This document shows positions 18,394 through 25,660 of a stretch of DNA of 43,836 nt, one piece after another (positions within the stretch are counted from its first letter, which is position 1; each line of letters starts with the position of its first letter). The notes under the pieces are model-generated. The model was not told the origin of the DNA and made no database searches. It saw only the letters and a program-made list of their open reading frames with translations. The translations under genes and the position numbers were made by a program. The stretch is from a virus. Where the stretch lies: positions 1 through 43,836 of IMG/VR virus record IMGVR_UViG_3300008450_000085; one strand, written 5' to 3'.

Positions 18394-19611
18394 ATGACTG
18401 AGGCATTCCGCAACCGCATTGTCGGTGAAGGCGAGGAGTTGGCAGACCAACTACTGGCTAATCCTTCCAATTGGCGCATTCATGGCGCAGGGCAACAGGC
18501 ATCGCTTGATGCCGCCATTGAACGGCTAGGCTGGATTCAGCGAGTCGTAGTAAACGTTACGACAGGGCATTTGGTTGACGGACATTTGCGCGTGATGTTG
18601 GCAATGAAGCGACGCGAACAAAAAGTTCCCGTCCTGTACGTTGAGTTGACTCCTGAAGAAGAAGCCTACGCCCTCGCCACACTTGACCCTATTGCAGCAA
18701 TGGCAGAAGCCGATACCGCCAAGTTAACCGCATTGCTGTCATCACTTGGAGCGGTGGACGACGCACTAACGCATGTGCTTAATCAGACAGCGCAGATGGC
18801 AGGCGCGGCATTTACTGCGGACGGATTAGAGGACTTGTCGCTGCCAAGCGGCACACTCGTACGCCCAAAGACGAAGCCTGATGTCATCTTCACGTTTAGC
18901 CAAAGCGACGGGGCATGCTGCACCGCCGTAGACGCAGGCTTGTTATACGGAACGCGTAGCACCAAGTCAACGCCATGCGAACGACATCGCTCTGAGTTCG
19001 TGGACAATGAATGGAAGGGCTATGAACACGAAGTGCATGTAGGAGTCGTGGAGCAACTTCGTCCGCGCTACGCAACTGTCCTTGACTTGCTAACGAAAGG
19101 GCAATGCGAAGCAATGGGCTTGCCATACAAAACGTTTGACGAAATCATGAAGTATGCTGAGGACGTAGAGCCGTTTACAGAAAACGTCATCGTCATTCCT
19201 AAGTACGACTGCATTGCAGACATCCCAGAGAAATATATGTTGGGCTACTCGGTGCCTTCGTCCTACGGTGGCACGCCGCTTGCCTTTGACCGCTTCCGAG
19301 GTCGCCGCACGCACCTGCTAGGAGGCTCGCCTGCAAAGCAGTTTGCCCTTTGGTGCGGCTATCCAGATGAAGTCATTAGCATTGACACCAATTACATTCA
19401 CAAGGTTGCTCAGTACGGGCAGGTTGCCTCAACAGACCTTGGGCGACAGTACGGCATCGTCACGGAGCCAATGCCTGCCCTAAAGACAACTTCTATTATG
19501 GACATGGGCATTCTCAAGTCCGCCAATCACCTGTACATCGCCTTCGCCATGAGCGCATCGTTGCTTGCTGGCTTGTTTGACCCAGACTTTAAGCCTGCGG
19601 AGGGCGCATGA
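18394..19611 (+). CDS. ParB-like domain fused to putative DpdA/TGT-like DNA-guanine transglycosylase
   Basis: 405 residues. Residues 1-105 form a ParB/Srx-type N-terminal domain: NPSNWRIHG, LGWIQRVVVN and GHLVDGHLRV near 58-67. Residues 160-200 hold a small Cys unit (CC at 175-176, C195, H198). The C-terminal half contains IPKYDCIADIPEKYMLGYSV continuing PSSYGGT (269-294), then THLLGGSPAKQF (306-317) and VISIDTN (327-333). These match my recollection of DNA 7-deazaguanine transglycosylases (DpdA-type, distant from tRNA TGT, whose GGL motif would correspond to LLGG). It would exchange guanine in phage DNA for a preQ base, with the ParB part guiding DNA contact. The adjacent queC/queF/yhhQ genes support this. 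ParB domains in phages are also often fused to methylases, but no SAM motif is seen here. Confidence 0.6.
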   Translation: MTEAFRNRIVGEGEELADQLLANPSNWRIHGAGQQASLDAAIERLGWIQRVVVNVTTGHLVDGHLRVMLAMKRREQKVPVLYVELTPEEEAYALATLDPIAAMAEADTAKLTALLSSLGAVDDALTHVLNQTAQMAGAAFTADGLEDLSLPSGTLVRPKTKPDVIFTFSQSDGACCTAVDAGLLYGTRSTKSTPCERHRSEFVDNEWKGYEHEVHVGVVEQLRPRYATVLDLLTKGQCEAMGLPYKTFDEIMKYAEDVEPFTENVIVIPKYDCIADIPEKYMLGYSVPSSYGGTPLAFDRFRGRRTHLLGGSPAKQFALWCGYPDEVISIDTNYIHKVAQYGQVASTDLGRQYGIVTEPMPALKTTSIMDMGILKSANHLYIAFAMSASLLAGLFDPDFKPAEGA

Positions 19612-20729
19612 AGCAAATTAAAAACGCAATCGTAGGCTCTGCTGACGTAGACCCATTTAGCGTTGACATGAATGACGCCAACTGGCGGACGCATCCAACA
19701 GAGCAAAAGCGCGCACTAGAAGAGGCGCTTACGCGCGTCGGCTGGGTGCAGCGGGTTATTGTCAACAAAAACACCAACAGGGTCGTTGATGGTCACTTGA
19801 GGCTATCCGTCGCGCGCGCCAAGAACGAGCCAACCGTGCCAGTAACCTATGTAGACCTATCAGACGACGACGAGCGTTTGGCATTGGCGACGTTTGACCC
19901 AATTGGTTCGTTGGCGTTTGCTGACAAGGATGCACTAACCGCGCTGCTCGGCTCGCTTGACAACACCGACGAGGCAATCGGCAACATGCTGACTGAAACG
20001 GCAAAGAACGCGGGCATCATCAAGGAAGATAAGTCGCAGACAGGTGACGACGACGGTCTGGGCAAAAAGCCTCGCCCCAAGACGCACCTTGACGTTTATG
20101 TAATCGTTAACGACGATGACAGCCGCTGCTGCGCGGTTACGAGGGCAGGACTTCTATATGCGACTGAAACGCGCGAGAAGCCTTGCCGCGTTCACCCTAT
20201 TGCTCTTTATGCCCCCCGAACCCTTACTAGCGAGAGCGTGCGGGAAACACGCGCCCTGCGCTATGTAATTCGGTGCGCGAGCATAGGGTCTAGCGAGGGT
20301 GTGCTTGCTGACGAGGTGATTGCGGCAGGGGCTGAGCCTGTGTATATGCCGAGCCGTCCGCCTGTCGGCTTGCGACCTGATGCTGTCGTTGCCTATGACC
20401 TTGATGATGAGCCGTACCCTCTAGACGCACTAGGTGAGCAGCCAGTCATTTTGTTCTCGTCCGATTGCAACAAACTTGTCAATGCCATTGGCAAGGCAAA
20501 TATTGTCGGGGTAGCAAGCGCACAACCTGCGGAAGCGGCTGGTCGTGGCGAACTGATTCTGTGGGACTTGCGCGCAAAACTAGGCGGCGTTACTTCGCCA
20601 ATGCCACTAACAAATATGCCGACGGTGAGCGACTTGGGCTATCACGTCCCGAACCCAATGCCAATTGCCATTGCCCTAAACTCATCCACAATGGCGCTTG
20701 CGTTTAACGACGAGGCGGCTCTGATATAG
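19608..20729 (+). CDS. ParB-like tandem paralogue with diverged C-terminal domain
   Basis: 373 residues, ATGA overlap with the preceding gene. The same ParB domain (NWRTHPTEQKRALEEAL, GWVQRVIVN, VVDGHLRL, LATFDPIGSLA) and the same Cys unit (CC at 174-175, C193, H196) are present. The terminal region also aligns: GGVTSPMP ... DLGYHVPNPMPIAIALNSS against GIVTEPMP ... MDMGILKSANHLYIAFAMSAS. The middle lacks the SVPxxYGGT and HLLGGSP motifs, so this copy is probably non-catalytic or altered in specificity. By analogy with the heterodimeric eukaryotic TGT, it may partner the first protein. No alternative function is evident. Confidence 0.6.
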   Translation: MKQIKNAIVGSADVDPFSVDMNDANWRTHPTEQKRALEEALTRVGWVQRVIVNKNTNRVVDGHLRLSVARAKNEPTVPVTYVDLSDDDERLALATFDPIGSLAFADKDALTALLGSLDNTDEAIGNMLTETAKNAGIIKEDKSQTGDDDGLGKKPRPKTHLDVYVIVNDDDSRCCAVTRAGLLYATETREKPCRVHPIALYAPRTLTSESVRETRALRYVIRCASIGSSEGVLADEVIAAGAEPVYMPSRPPVGLRPDAVVAYDLDDEPYPLDALGEQPVILFSSDCNKLVNAIGKANIVGVASAQPAEAAGRGELILWDLRAKLGGVTSPMPLTNMPTVSDLGYHVPNPMPIAIALNSSTMALAFNDEAALI

Positions 20730-20803: not shown

Positions 20804-21376
20804 ATGGTTCTGTTCCTAATCATCGCCGCCTATGTCGGCGTAACGCTCGCGGCTAATACATATGCCACGACGTTGATTGAGTTGCCGCTGTTCGGTGTTG
20901 TCGGTGTCGGCACGCTGTTCTTCGGCGCAACGTTCACTTTGCGGGACTGGATTCACCAGTTTGCGCATGACCAAGGGCGCGGGCGCAAGCCCGTGTACTA
21001 CATGATTGCATCAGCGGCAATCGTGAACTTCCTTGTGGCAATCGTCACAGGCGGCGAGCAGTTTGATATTCGTATCGTGCTTGCATCCTGCGCGGCGATT
21101 CTTATCGCTGAATCGGCAGACACGGAAATCTATCAGCGCCTTATCAAGAGGAACTGGTACTTGCGCGTCGCGGCATCTAACGGAGTATCCGCTCCGCTAG
21201 ATTCCATCATCTTTACGCTGCTCGCCTTTTACGGCGCGTCGTACTTTCCACAGGAACTTCTTATCCCTGTGATTTTTGGCGACACGCTAGTTAAGTGGGC
21301 AGTAGGAGGCTTGCTTGCGCTTACGAAGTCCGTACGCGACGCAGCAGGCGCAGTGCTGAAAGGACTTAACGGATGA
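20804..21376 (+). CDS. yhhQ: Queuosine-precursor transporter, YhhQ/VUT family
   Basis: 190 residues with five to six hydrophobic membrane segments. Family motifs are present: ANTYATTLIEL, FGATFTLRDWIHQFAHD, ESADTEIYQRLIKRNWYLR and SNGVSAPLDSIIFTLLAF. YhhQ proteins import preQ0 and preQ1 across the inner membrane. The start is ATG 20804, with GAGGGAG eight to nine bases upstream and the riboswitch before it. It begins an operon of overlapping genes (ATGA with queF). A phage-encoded importer would raise the supply of the modified base precursor during infection. Confidence 0.85.
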   Translation: MVLFLIIAAYVGVTLAANTYATTLIELPLFGVVGVGTLFFGATFTLRDWIHQFAHDQGRGRKPVYYMIASAAIVNFLVAIVTGGEQFDIRIVLASCAAILIAESADTEIYQRLIKRNWYLRVAASNGVSAPLDSIIFTLLAFYGASYFPQELLIPVIFGDTLVKWAVGGLLALTKSVRDAAGAVLKGLNG

Positions 21377-21819
21377 GTAACGCGGAACACTTGCAAGCAC
21401 TTGGGTCACAAGTAACGGAGTATCCGACGACGTACGATGAGTCCGTCTTGGAAAAGATTCCGTTTGACCATTCAGGCACGAGCATCGTTGAGTTGGAGTG
21501 CCCCGAATTCACAAGTCTTTGCCCAAAGACGGGGCAGCCAGACTTTGCGAACATTACGATTCGTTATCGTCCAGATAAGTACCTCGTAGAGTCCAAGGCT
21601 CTGAAACTGTACCTGTTTAGTTTCCGCAACCATGGCGAGTTCCATGAGGACTGCATTGCGCGTATTGCTAAAACGCTATACGCCCTTACGGAGCCTTTCT
21701 GGTTGGAAGTACGCGGCGATTTCACTCCGCGTGGCGGCATCAGCATTAACCCTGTAGCCGTCATTGAGCGTCCGATGCCAGTCGGCAACGAAAGCCCTCG
21801 CATCGTCGTTCCGCGATGA
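21373..21819 (+). CDS. queF: preQ0 nitrile reductase QueF (NADPH-dependent)
   Basis: 148 residues, the length of unimodular type I QueF. It carries the catalytic FTSLCPKTGQPDF with Cys50 and Asp57, the NADPH-site segment ESKALKLYLFSFRNHGEFHE (73-92) with the ES-K-x-KLY pattern, and the C-terminal RGDFTPRGGI. All key residues are present, so it should reduce preQ0 to preQ1, unlike QueF-like amidinotransferases that lack the NADPH motif. ATGA overlaps on both sides show tight coupling with yhhQ and the GNAT gene. Confidence 0.92.
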   Translation: MSNAEHLQALGSQVTEYPTTYDESVLEKIPFDHSGTSIVELECPEFTSLCPKTGQPDFANITIRYRPDKYLVESKALKLYLFSFRNHGEFHEDCIARIAKTLYALTEPFWLEVRGDFTPRGGISINPVAVIERPMPVGNESPRIVVPR

Positions 21820-22250
21820 GTATTCGCTACGACTTGGCGGTTCCAGAGGACTACGACGGAATCGCACTCGTGGCGAAGCAGGCAGTCCGCGAGTTGGGGT
21901 ACACGATGCCGCCCGTTTATCGGGCGTCAATCGCAAGTAGCGAGATGGTCGCTGCGTACTCTGACTCGCGGGTTGTCGGCTTTATTCAGTTCCATAAACG
22001 ACGCGACGGCATTGTTACGATTTATAAATTTGCCGTTGATACAGAATTACGCGGCAAAGGCATTGGTAAGGGCATGCTGGAGTTCTTGGAGCAGCGTAGC
22101 CGTTCCGTGCTTCATGCCGAAGCCATACGCCTCAAAGTCATAGAAGGAACGCCCGCCGTGGACTTTTACCACGCCGTTGGCTTTAATACGATAGACAAGG
22201 AGCCGTCTAAAAAGACGAATCTTCTCGTCATGAGGAAGGAGTTGGAATGA
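21816..22250 (+). CDS. GNAT-family N-acetyltransferase in the modification operon
   Basis: 144 residues. Motif A FAVDTELRGKGIGKGMLEF (about residues 73-91) contains the R/Q-x-x-G-x-G/A acetyl-CoA pyrophosphate loop. Motif B is AVDFYHAVGFNTIDKE (about residues 118-133). It is overlapped by queF (ATGA) and by queC at its end, so it is part of the preQ1 operon. The primary amine of preQ1 is an obvious candidate acceptor, and Mom of phage Mu shows that GNAT-fold enzymes can modify DNA bases. Protein acetylation or toxin-like roles remain possible. The acceptor is inference. Confidence 0.7.
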   Translation: MSIRYDLAVPEDYDGIALVAKQAVRELGYTMPPVYRASIASSEMVAAYSDSRVVGFIQFHKRRDGIVTIYKFAVDTELRGKGIGKGMLEFLEQRSRSVLHAEAIRLKVIEGTPAVDFYHAVGFNTIDKEPSKKTNLLVMRKELE

Positions 22251-22975
22251 AAGCAATTATCGTTGCCTCAGGAGGCATGGACAGCGCAACCGCTGCCTAT
22301 CAGTACGCACACCGAGGCTATGAACTGCACCTTGTCGGGTTTGACTACGGTCAGAGGCACGTCAAGGAACTGTCGGCACTTATGCAGGTCGGCGGCAGGC
22401 TTAACGCCCCCGTCAGCATTATTGACCTAAAGTCGCTCGGAGAGTTCCTTGGCAGGAATAGCCTGACAGGTGACAACACCGTTCCAGACGGGCATTACCG
22501 CGAGGAAACGATGCGCCAGACGGTCGTGCCTAACCGCAACGCCATCATGATTAACATCGCAGCAGGTATCGCCCAAGCCGAAAACGCCGAAAGGGTCGTT
22601 ACTGGAGTTCATAGCGGCGACCATTACATCTACCCAGACTGCCGCCCGCAGTTCGTGCGCGCGCTTGCCGAAAGTATTTCATACGCCACCGAAGGGGCAG
22701 TCGCTCTGGACGCACCGTTCCTCCACCTGACCAAGGCTGATATCGTCAAGGAAGGCGCGAGGCTAAACTTGCCGTATGAGATAACATGGAGTTGTTACAA
22801 GGGTGGCGCGCAGCATTGCGGCACATGCGGCACATGCTTTGAGCGCAAAGAGTCGTTTAACGTGGCAGGAGTACCTGACCCGACGAACTATATTCAGGAG
22901 GGCTTTGAGTGGTACAAGGGGTCATTGCCAGTAGAGAGAGCGGGACTGCCAGTCGGCGGAGAGATGGAGTCGTAG
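22247..22975 (+). CDS. queC: 7-cyano-7-deazaguanine (preQ0) synthase QueC
   Basis: 242 residues. The PP-loop ATP site SGGMDSATAA is at 8-17. FDYGQRHVKEL, the VVPNRNAIMINIAAG motif (93-107), and the zinc site with Cys183, Cys191, Cys194 and Cys197 (SCYKGGAQHCGTCGTCFERK) are all conserved. QueC converts 7-carboxy-7-deazaguanine and ammonia to preQ0 with ATP. GTP cyclohydrolase, QueD and QueE are not encoded here, so the CDG substrate must come from the host. Overlaps the GNAT gene (ATGA) and the GP88-like gene. Confidence 0.93.
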   Translation: MKAIIVASGGMDSATAAYQYAHRGYELHLVGFDYGQRHVKELSALMQVGGRLNAPVSIIDLKSLGEFLGRNSLTGDNTVPDGHYREETMRQTVVPNRNAIMINIAAGIAQAENAERVVTGVHSGDHYIYPDCRPQFVRALAESISYATEGAVALDAPFLHLTKADIVKEGARLNLPYEITWSCYKGGAQHCGTCGTCFERKESFNVAGVPDPTNYIQEGFEWYKGSLPVERAGLPVGGEMES

Positions 22976-23712
22976 CCAAGCCGCGAAAGTGGTTGCTGCG
23001 GCAAAACGCCGAACTTCGGGACATTGGCGCGTTTAACTGGACGCTGCCCGCACTAGGAGTCAAGTTAGACGACGGAAGGGTCATCAAGACCTGTCCGCAG
23101 GCTGGGGTATGCGCGCAGTTCTGCTACGCCCGAAATGGCACCTTCCTGTTCCCTACAGCGAAAAAGGCGCACGCGAATAACCTGAAGATGGTGCTAGATG
23201 ACCTCGTTGGATGGCAAAGCGCCATGATTGAGGAGTTATCACACAAGCGGTATCGGGGCGGCAAGTACGTCCGAATTCATGACTCAGGGGACTTTTTCAG
23301 CGATGAGTACCTTGAGGCGTGGATTTACATCGCCAGGGTCATCCCTGACGTGACGTTTTATGCGTACACGAAGGAAGTATCGCGCTTTAAGCGCATAGCC
23401 GACAAAGAGTATTACTCGTCAACGGCTCAGCCCGCGGGCATGCAACGACTCACCCCAAAGAACTTTCTCTACCTGTATTCGCTCGGAGGGCTAGAAGACC
23501 ACCTCATAGACTTAGAAAATGACCGCCATGCGGAGGTGTTCCCTACGGCGGAAGCACTTGAGGCGGCGGGCTACTTCAATCAGGAGGAGTCAGACTTGCT
23601 CGCAATTACCGCACCTACGAACAAAATTGGCATCGTTGCCAATAACATCCCAGCGTTCAAGAAGAAGCAAGGTGCGCTCACATTTGGGCAGCACCAAGAA
23701 AGGAAGGGCTAA
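22909..23712 (+). CDS. GP88-like Cys-motif phage protein in the modification module
   Basis: 267 residues from GTG 22909, set by an AGGAGGG site inside queC, a 67-bp overlap. A Cys motif CPQAGVCAQFCYARNGTF (about residues 61-78, C-x5-C-x3-C) is followed by GGKYVRIHDSGDFFSDEYLE, typical of phage GP88/DUF7227-type proteins. The C-terminal part is YSLGGLEDHLIDL and acidic helices. The Cys layout suggests a metal or iron-sulfur site, but no activity is known. Its place at the end of the preQ operon suggests a role in base modification or protection from it. Confidence 0.6.
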   Translation: MVQGVIASRESGTASRRRDGVVAKPRKWLLRQNAELRDIGAFNWTLPALGVKLDDGRVIKTCPQAGVCAQFCYARNGTFLFPTAKKAHANNLKMVLDDLVGWQSAMIEELSHKRYRGGKYVRIHDSGDFFSDEYLEAWIYIARVIPDVTFYAYTKEVSRFKRIADKEYYSSTAQPAGMQRLTPKNFLYLYSLGGLEDHLIDLENDRHAEVFPTAEALEAAGYFNQEESDLLAITAPTNKIGIVANNIPAFKKKQGALTFGQHQERKG

Positions 23713-23869: not shown

Positions 23870-24381
23870 TGAGCGGAGAAGGCAACAGCAAGAAGACTCC
23901 TGAGCGCGTAGCAGCCATCGTACAGGCGCTACGGGCAGGCAACACGCGCCGTGCTGCGGTATCCTTTGGCGAGATTGACCATGCGACATTTTATCGCTGG
24001 ATGGAGGACGATGCGACATTCTGCGACGCGGTTCAGAAGGCAGAAGCAGATGCTGAGGTCAGGTTTGTGGCACAGGTTGCGCAAGCAGCCTCAACAGGCA
24101 CTTGGTCAGCCGCAGCGTGGTGGCTTGAGCGCAGACGAGGACAAGATTGGCGCAGGCATGAATCGCTGGAACTCACGGGCAGCCCAAATGCCCCTGTTGT
24201 CGTAAAGCAAGAAGGAAACAATCATGGCGCAAGCATTGCCGACACACTTGCCATCCTTGCAGAAATTGGAGTCATTGCCGCAGAGCCAGAAGGACAGGCT
24301 GATACGGGCATTGACCCCGAGGACGACCAAGTACGCACCGCACAAGCCGACGGCGAGGCAGGCGGCGTTTCTTCTTCTTAA
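23869..24381 (+). CDS. terS: Terminase small subunit
   Basis: 170 residues. The N-terminal helix-turn-helix (TPERVAAIVQALRAGNTRR, continuing AAVSFGEIDHATFYRWMEDD) is the DNA-binding domain of small terminases, followed by oligomerisation helices (AEADAEVRFVAQVAQAAS) and an AWWLERR motif. It recognises the packaging site and regulates the large subunit. Its last 158 bp also encode the start of the large terminase in another frame. Confidence 0.85.
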   Translation: MSGEGNSKKTPERVAAIVQALRAGNTRRAAVSFGEIDHATFYRWMEDDATFCDAVQKAEADAEVRFVAQVAQAASTGTWSAAAWWLERRRGQDWRRHESLELTGSPNAPVVVKQEGNNHGASIADTLAILAEIGVIAAEPEGQADTGIDPEDDQVRTAQADGEAGGVSSS

Positions 24382-25660
24382 CGACTTAGAGGCGCTCTAC
24401 GGGGGCGCAGCGGGCGGAGGGAAGTCAGATGCGCTCCTGATGGCGGCGTTGCAGTACGTAGACATGCCGCACTATGCCGCGTTGATTCTGCGCCGTTCCT
24501 ACACAGACCTGAGCCTTCCCGATGCCATCATGAGCCGTGCCCGTGACTGGCTTTCGGCGTACCCAGAAGTGACTTGGAACGAGTCGCGTAAAACATTCCA
24601 CTTCCCGTCTGGCGCGACGATTACGTTCGGCTACTTGGAGTCCGAGGCAGATAAGTACCGCTATCAAGGCGCAGCGTTCCAGTTCATTGCCTTTGACGAG
24701 TTGACGCAGTTCACCCGTAGCCAGTACCTGTACCTGTTTTCACGCTTGAGGCGCGGTGCTGACGCTGATGTACCTGTAAGGGTACGTTCAGCCTCTAACC
24801 CAGGCGGTATCGGGCACGAGTGGGTCTATGACCGTTTCATTCCAAAGACTAAGTTTGACGGCTCCGTAGAAATGCCCGTAGACAACGACAACCGCCCGCG
24901 TAGGTTCGTACCTGCCCGACTCCGAGATAACCCGCACCTTGACCAAGACGAATACACAAAGGCACTCGGTGAGTTGGACGCGGTAACGCGAGCGCAACTC
25001 TTGGACGGCAACTGGCTGGTTCGTCCTGAGGGCGCAATCTTTAAGGTGGGTTCGTTTATGACTGAGGACGAGTTGCCTAATCACCCGATACGCCAAGTAC
25101 GGGCGTGGGATATGGCAGCCACACCCAACGGCGGCGACTATACGGCAGGTGTGCTTCTGGCGCGAGATATGGTGTCGGGCTTCACATACGTCCGAGATGT
25201 CGTCCGCATGCAAGGGTCGCCAGCGGACGTAGAGAGGCTCGTGCAGTCAACGGCGCAGCGCGATGGCAAGTCTGTCCCTATCCGCATGGAGCAAGAACCA
25301 GGCTCATCGGGCGTGTCCCTGATTGATTATTACTCGCGTAAGGTTCTGTACGGGTATGACTTCCGAGGCGTGCGCTCCACAGGGTCAAAGATTGCGCGTG
25401 CAATGGGCATGGCAGCACAGGCGGAACGCGGGAACATTCGTCTTATCCGAGCAAATTGGAACGCGCAGTTCCTTGATGAAATGTACGCCTTCCCCGATGG
25501 CGCTCATGACGACCAAGTAGACGCTGCTACGGGAGCCTTCAATGCACTTGCAATTGGACGCGATGCGCAATCATCTAGTAGTATTGCGCCACAGAATGCT
25601 ACAATCACCAAGCGCGGCGACTTGACGCTCAAGGGCGACCGCTATGTAGACAAGAGGTAA
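24224..25660 (+). CDS. terL: Terminase large subunit
   Basis: 478 residues. TARQAAFLLL precedes Walker A GGAAGGGKS (60-68). Walker B is FQFIAFDELTQF (D158, E159). RSASNPGG is the coupling motif. The C-terminal RNase H-like nuclease has WDMAATPNGGDYTAG and HDDQVDAATGAF. It translocates DNA into the procapsid and cuts concatemers. The ATG at 24224 has AGAAGGAAAC upstream and overlaps terS by 158 bp. The Q-like motif near residue 43 requires a start well inside terS, so a large overlap is real. Confidence 0.93.
   Translation: MAQALPTHLPSLQKLESLPQSQKDRLIRALTPRTTKYAPHKPTARQAAFLLLNDLEALYGGAAGGGKSDALLMAALQYVDMPHYAALILRRSYTDLSLPDAIMSRARDWLSAYPEVTWNESRKTFHFPSGATITFGYLESEADKYRYQGAAFQFIAFDELTQFTRSQYLYLFSRLRRGADADVPVRVRSASNPGGIGHEWVYDRFIPKTKFDGSVEMPVDNDNRPRRFVPARLRDNPHLDQDEYTKALGELDAVTRAQLLDGNWLVRPEGAIFKVGSFMTEDELPNHPIRQVRAWDMAATPNGGDYTAGVLLARDMVSGFTYVRDVVRMQGSPADVERLVQSTAQRDGKSVPIRMEQEPGSSGVSLIDYYSRKVLYGYDFRGVRSTGSKIARAMGMAAQAERGNIRLIRANWNAQFLDEMYAFPDGAHDDQVDAATGAFNALAIGRDAQSSSSIAPQNATITKRGDLTLKGDRYVDKR

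Follow-up and report, generated by a model that had tools for sequence, protein, structure and literature searches.

A ParB-fused DUF6610 protein in a viral preQ operon as a likely DNA guanine transglycosylase

The virus analysed here possesses a gene, P0001, an open frame of 405 aa at positions 18394-19611 of the plus strand, whose product is likely a DUF6610-type phage DNA guanine transglycosylase with a built-in ParB-type DNA-binding domain. Sequence and structure prediction support a ParB domain, a TGT-like barrel with three Asp residues, and an operon for preQ import, synthesis and reduction, and the enzyme domain very probably exchanges DNA guanine for the 7-deaza base preQ1. The earlier note on this DNA had proposed a ParB-type domain fused to a DpdA-like transglycosylase, and the joining of a ParB domain and a transglycosylase-like domain in one chain was borne out. 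Phage 7-deazaguanine DNA modification is already known; what is new is the lineage of ParB-fused DUF6610 predicted transglycosylases in bacterial viruses, together with the dead tandem copy carried by this phage.

The window, namely the whole stretch of DNA that was analysed (a virus record of 43.8 kb), carries P0001 as the first gene of a run that continues with P0002, a YhhQ-type transporter, QueF-II, a GNAT acetyltransferase and QueC, while terminase and tape-measure genes lie downstream of the run (Table 1). Neighbouring genes overlap by 4 bp at every junction but one, P0001 and P0002 included, and the sole exception is a 74-bp gap between P0002 and the YhhQ gene. The scores of the YhhQ, QueF-II and QueC assignments exceed curated cut-offs, and the three genes together are predicted to provide preQ1 from a host or imported precursor. 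FolE, QueD and QueE were not found among the subset of window ORFs scanned against family libraries, an absence to be read as provisional. Since the operon contains YhhQ, QueF, GNAT and QueC, preQ1 is the likely substrate of P0001. A protein with a CPQAGVCAQFC cluster, encoded at 22909-23712 and with homologues directly upstream of the fusion in loci L021 and L025, may belong to the same pathway. The terminase large subunit (24224-25660) is closest to those of the archaeal virus psiM2 and Gordonia phages (46-47%), which is an odd mix for predicting the host.

Table 1. Positions in the window of the predicted domains, active-site residues and genes of the P0001 run.
Feature	Position	Strand	Basis
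N-terminal ParB/sulfiredoxin-like domain, P0001 residues 1-~118	18394..18747	+	PHROG ParB/MTase families; Foldseek
TGT-like TIM barrel (DUF6610), P0001 residues ~152-400	18847..19593	+	Pfam PF20314; AlphaFold model
Asp204 at the end of strand 3, putative general acid/base (counterpart of TGT D102)	19003..19005	+	invariant 32/32; model
Asp231 at the end of strand 4, putative base-recognition residue (counterpart of TGT D156)	19084..19086	+	invariant 32/32
Asp331 at the end of strand 8, putative nucleophile (counterpart of TGT D280)	19384..19386	+	invariant 32/32
P0002, ParB domain and degenerate TGT-like barrel that lacks the three Asp	19608..20729	+	31% identity to P0001
YhhQ-type queuosine precursor transporter	20804..21376	+	Pfam Vut_1; TIGR00697 above cut-off
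QueF-II nitrile reductase (preQ1 synthase)	21373..21819	+	TIGR03139 above cut-off; CPxTxxPD and ESKALKLY motifs
GNAT acetyltransferase, possibly preQ1-acting	21816..22250	+	Pfam Acetyltransf families; 4-bp overlaps with neighbours
QueC, preQ0 synthase	22247..22975	+	TIGR00364 above cut-off

The first ~120 residues of P0001 match PHROG ParB families with E-values down to 1e-13, and a Foldseek search against the PDB matched this domain to ParB-N (5k5d) and Noc (7nfu), which places it in the ParB/Srx fold and agrees with the domain type claimed in the earlier note. Its GxxR nucleotide-binding box reads DGHLR, as it does in P0002, while many fusions carry AGN(H/G/K)T instead. It is reasonable to suppose that the ParB domain finds, or docks on, DNA; it is not needed for the chemistry, since HVTV-1 gp69 and L023, both DUF6610 proteins, are devoid of it. 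ParB domains are frequently fused to DNA methyltransferases (PMC12783734), and such fusions (PHROG 498) resemble P0001 in that a ParB domain of the same kind precedes a DNA-modifying enzyme, but this enzyme is a methyltransferase, whereas base exchange is proposed for P0001. The ParB domain of P0001 is also 53-58% identical to the ParB regions of Stenotrophomonas phage proteins. Two such proteins annotated as DNA methylase (L076:4974-5705 and L077:3974-4723) were rejected as full methyltransferases, because the products are only 243-249 aa long and consist of a ParB domain and a short tail.

Residues 178-346 of P0001 match Pfam DUF6610 (PF20314) with 121.9 bits (E 3.4e-35, gathering cut-off 27), and the two C-terminal motifs, LGYSVPSSYGGT at residues 283-294 and HLLGGSP at residues 307-313, are conserved family-wide, so that the motifs are not chance occurrences. 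An AlphaFold model of P0001 was made with 32 sequences, taken from the window, from virus contigs and from a single contig of a haloarchaeal genome; its mean pLDDT is 83.8, with blocks of 90-99 from residue ~201 to ~340. Nearly all the best matches of the C-terminal domain in a Foldseek search against the PDB are TGTs (E 6.5e-5 to TGT), and residues 153-399 align with TGT 2pwu over 224 residues (VIA-align, Z 13.6, rmsd 3.7); the predicted fold is thus the TIM barrel that the earlier note had anticipated. However, the fold alone is no proof of TGT kinship, because TIM barrels are common and the unrelated barrel 6w6a reaches Z 13.2 over 182 residues (VIA-align).

As for the suggested likeness to DpdA, the transglycosylase part is supported by the TGT-like predicted fold, the Asp positions and the preQ genes in the operon, but the sequence is not that of a DpdA. 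No match to P0001 was found with the DpdA families (PHROG 887/7068, NF041059 and the PADLOC DpdA model), and the protein belongs to DUF6610 instead. P0001 has no match to the Pfam TGT model PF01702, and a scan of 24 records with this model was empty too, a negative result that is uninformative, as even the established phage DpdA of CAjan escapes it, and phmmer of P0001 against PDB sequences gave no match. Comparison by hhalign of DUF6610 with TGT and DpdA produced weak matches (E about 0.08-0.11), while the accepted phage DpdA1-TGT pair, with E 0.08, did no better than DUF6610-TGT (0.08). With the DpdA2 of Vibrio phage nt-1 (YP_008125322), a single-sequence template, hhalign gave E 0.36 over 18 columns, and a single-sequence DpdA2 search over nine records, which had no positive control, was empty. 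Bacterial and archaeal TGTs (PF01702) share with P0001 the TIM barrel and the Asp residues at strands 3, 4 and 8, but they act on tRNA, carry a zinc site, have no ParB domain and show no detectable sequence-family match to it. No literature on DUF6610 was found among open-licence papers.

Asp204, Asp231 and Asp331 are invariant in all 32 DUF6610 domains aligned, as are Gly311 and Gln316, and Lys270 is nearly so. In the P0001 model the three Asp residues terminate strands 3, 4 and 8, the positions held in TGT by D102, D156 and D280 (numbered as in Zymomonas), and their predicted roles are assigned from TGT chemistry. According to the hhalign alignments, in which strands 4, 6, 7 and 8 of DUF6610 and TGT are in the same register, Asp231 shares a column with the TGT Asp, and Asp331 with the Asp of both TGT and DpdA. 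The TGT zinc site (CxCxxC...H), which lies after the nucleophile, is absent from P0001, and there is no Cys beyond D331. The Cys unit pointed out in the earlier note does exist (CC...C...H, formed by C175, C176, C195 and H198), but it was rejected as the TGT zinc site on account of its wrong position and its presence in only five of the 32 relatives (the window, L012, L013, L017 and L021) in addition to P0002; it may represent a lineage-specific structural metal site.

The tandem paralogue P0002 can be aligned with P0001 end to end, and its model (pLDDT 73) comprises a ParB domain (Z 12.8) and a TGT-like barrel (Z 10.1), but all three catalytic Asp residues and the HLLGG motif have been lost. 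No barrel of the P0002 type was found elsewhere in the viral contigs scanned. On the simplest reading, by analogy, P0002 is probably a non-catalytic pseudo-enzyme partner of P0001, for which the eukaryotic QTRT1/QTRT2 pair, catalytic and non-catalytic, respectively, provides the model, with QTRT2 as the pseudo-enzyme analogue. Alternatively, P0002 might be a decay product left after duplication, but an intact reading frame, the retained Cys unit and the overlap of 4 bp favour a functional protein.

When P0001 and P0002 were used as single sequences to scan viral contigs, nothing was returned, while an alignment-based profile scan succeeded and yielded 46 loci from viruses and 5 from genomes. 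One branch (support 99/99) unites seventeen fusion sequences and also includes one unfused member, L023. Genes for preQ synthesis or YhhQ are close by in all 15 fusion lineages with readable flanks, compared with one of nine unfused bacterial-virus relatives (Fisher p 1.2e-5, in which near-identical sequences were grouped by eye and independence is overstated because the lineages are related). The DpdA1 profile found nothing in the window, the other IMG/VR fusion contigs or HVTV-1, and the only fusion carriers in which it revealed a second enzyme are mycobacteriophages Funsized, Knocker and Rinkes (L003, L007 and L008), where the ParB-DUF6610 fusion and DpdA1 stand in one operon as two putative base-exchange enzymes; the DUF6610 protein is therefore not the sole candidate in these phages. 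Their gp1 is similar to P0001 in combining ParB with DUF6610 and in being the first gene of a preQ operon, but it is annotated only as a ParB-like nuclease, is accompanied by the separate DpdA1 and, unlike P0001, has no paralogue.

Halovirus proteins HVTV-1 gp69, HCTV-5 gp68 and HCTV-1 gp64 are also members of DUF6610, and their genes adjoin FolE and QueE/QueD/QueC/QueF. Similar to P0001, they have the same three Asp residues and preQ gene neighbours, but they are only ~25% identical to it, come from archaeal viruses and carry an acidic N-terminus in place of ParB, and no tandem pseudo-enzyme comparable to P0002 was noted at their loci. A DpdA4 group has reportedly been described for archaeal viruses by Cui et al. 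in 2023, and DUF6610, including HVTV-1 gp69, is probably this DpdA4. Three further DUF6610 copies, with a Cys-rich C-terminal tail, are present on contigs of the haloarchaeon Saliphagus infecundisoli (L060-L062). The DNA of HVTV-1 contains 88,607 dPreQ1 per million nucleotides, ~30% of G, and no DpdA had been recognised in this virus as of 2019 (PMC6884629).

Arbiter (Rosebushvirus) and Bipper possess a standalone ParB-like gene, a proposed DpdB, directly upstream of DpdA. Like P0001, Arbiter gp1-gp2 and Bipper gp1-gp3 bring a ParB-like protein and a transglycosylase together, here in a preQ0 operon, but as two polypeptides and with an enzyme from another sequence family (DpdA1). The hallmark of DpdB in bacterial dpd systems is that preQ0 insertion requires it along with DpdA. 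Rosebush DNA has ~28% of its G as dPreQ0. DpdB is a ParB-superfamily protein generally accompanying DpdA, and the first gene of such an operon was suggested to be a DpdB homologue in a genome paper (PMC6392294). Given these separate ParB-DpdA neighbours and the DpdB literature, the fusion reads as the two-gene ParB/DpdA pair in one chain; the PADLOC DpdB model found no match in P0001, and the likeness is at the superfamily level only.

Coupling of DUF6610 to GNAT genes or domains also occurs in L031 (7440-9926), L032 (7055-7375), L034 (7693-7995), L039 (7591-7896), L041/L042 (L041:4219-4536) and L058 (4916-6673). L031 encodes a fusion of GNAT, DUF6610 and a C5 methyltransferase, and in L032 and L034 the GNAT-like ORFs are short, degenerate in appearance and below the Pfam threshold. 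The GNAT of the P0001 operon could possibly modify the amine of preQ1 by acylation, which we offer as a lead only; no literature on a GNAT acting on preQ1 in DNA was found among open-licence papers.

Taken as a pathway, YhhQ would import a preQ precursor, QueC would make preQ0, and QueF would reduce preQ0 to preQ1. The ParB domain would dock the enzyme on DNA, a role that has been proposed elsewhere for the separate DpdB, with P0002 as the putative ParB-carrying partner. Asp331 would then attack C1' of deoxyguanosine and expel guanine, Asp204 would serve as the general acid/base, and preQ1, bound with Asp231, would replace guanine; the modified phage DNA could subsequently resist host restriction. 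A bolder version, in which P0001 and P0002 build a nucleotide-gated clamp from their ParB domains that moves the catalytic/non-catalytic transglycosylase pair along phage DNA for processive or site-directed exchange, and a new hypermodified base arises through acylation of preQ1 by the GNAT, appears improbable.

Other functions of P0001 have to be weighed against this assignment. As a tRNA-acting transglycosylase, it would salvage preQ1 into host or phage tRNA, with ParB as an unrelated passenger, and the TGT-like barrel, whose best solved matches are tRNA enzymes, would be compatible with such a role. However, neither a tRNA-binding PUA domain nor the TGT zinc site is present in P0001, the ParB domain belongs to a type that is frequently joined to DNA methyltransferases (PHROG 498; PMC12783734), and HVTV-1, a halovirus with DUF6610, carries dPreQ1 in its DNA, which makes action on tRNA very unlikely. 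Even less credible is a ParB-like protein of the usual partition or nuclease kind whose C-terminal domain is unrelated, despite the mycobacteriophage annotation as "ParB-like nuclease domain protein" and the matches to ParB PHROGs, because the C-terminal half is a DUF6610 domain with a TGT fold and invariant Asp residues, DUF6610 occurs without ParB too (L023 and others), and it is tied to preQ genes in the fused lineage.

The DUF6610 barrel might instead be a partner of the inserting enzyme, or one that processes the base by removing or altering it, with an unrecognised DpdA elsewhere acting as the inserter. The co-occurrence of the fusion and DpdA1 in Funsized, Knocker and Rinkes is in favour of such a division of labour, and virus contigs may be incomplete. 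We nevertheless judge it unlikely, as the DpdA1 profile was empty in the window, in the other fusion contigs and in HVTV-1, the DNA of which is modified, and the catalytic triad fits the TGT pattern.

As a DNA guanine transglycosylase, the fusion would be a natural single-chain version of the suspected partnership between ParB (DpdB) and DpdA, and it opens the choice of target sites by DNA transglycosylases to direct testing. Together with its dead tandem copy, P0001 might form a catalytic/non-catalytic pair that acts on DNA. Finally, proteins so far annotated as "domain of unknown function" or "ParB nuclease" would become a testable group of phage DNA base-exchange enzymes.
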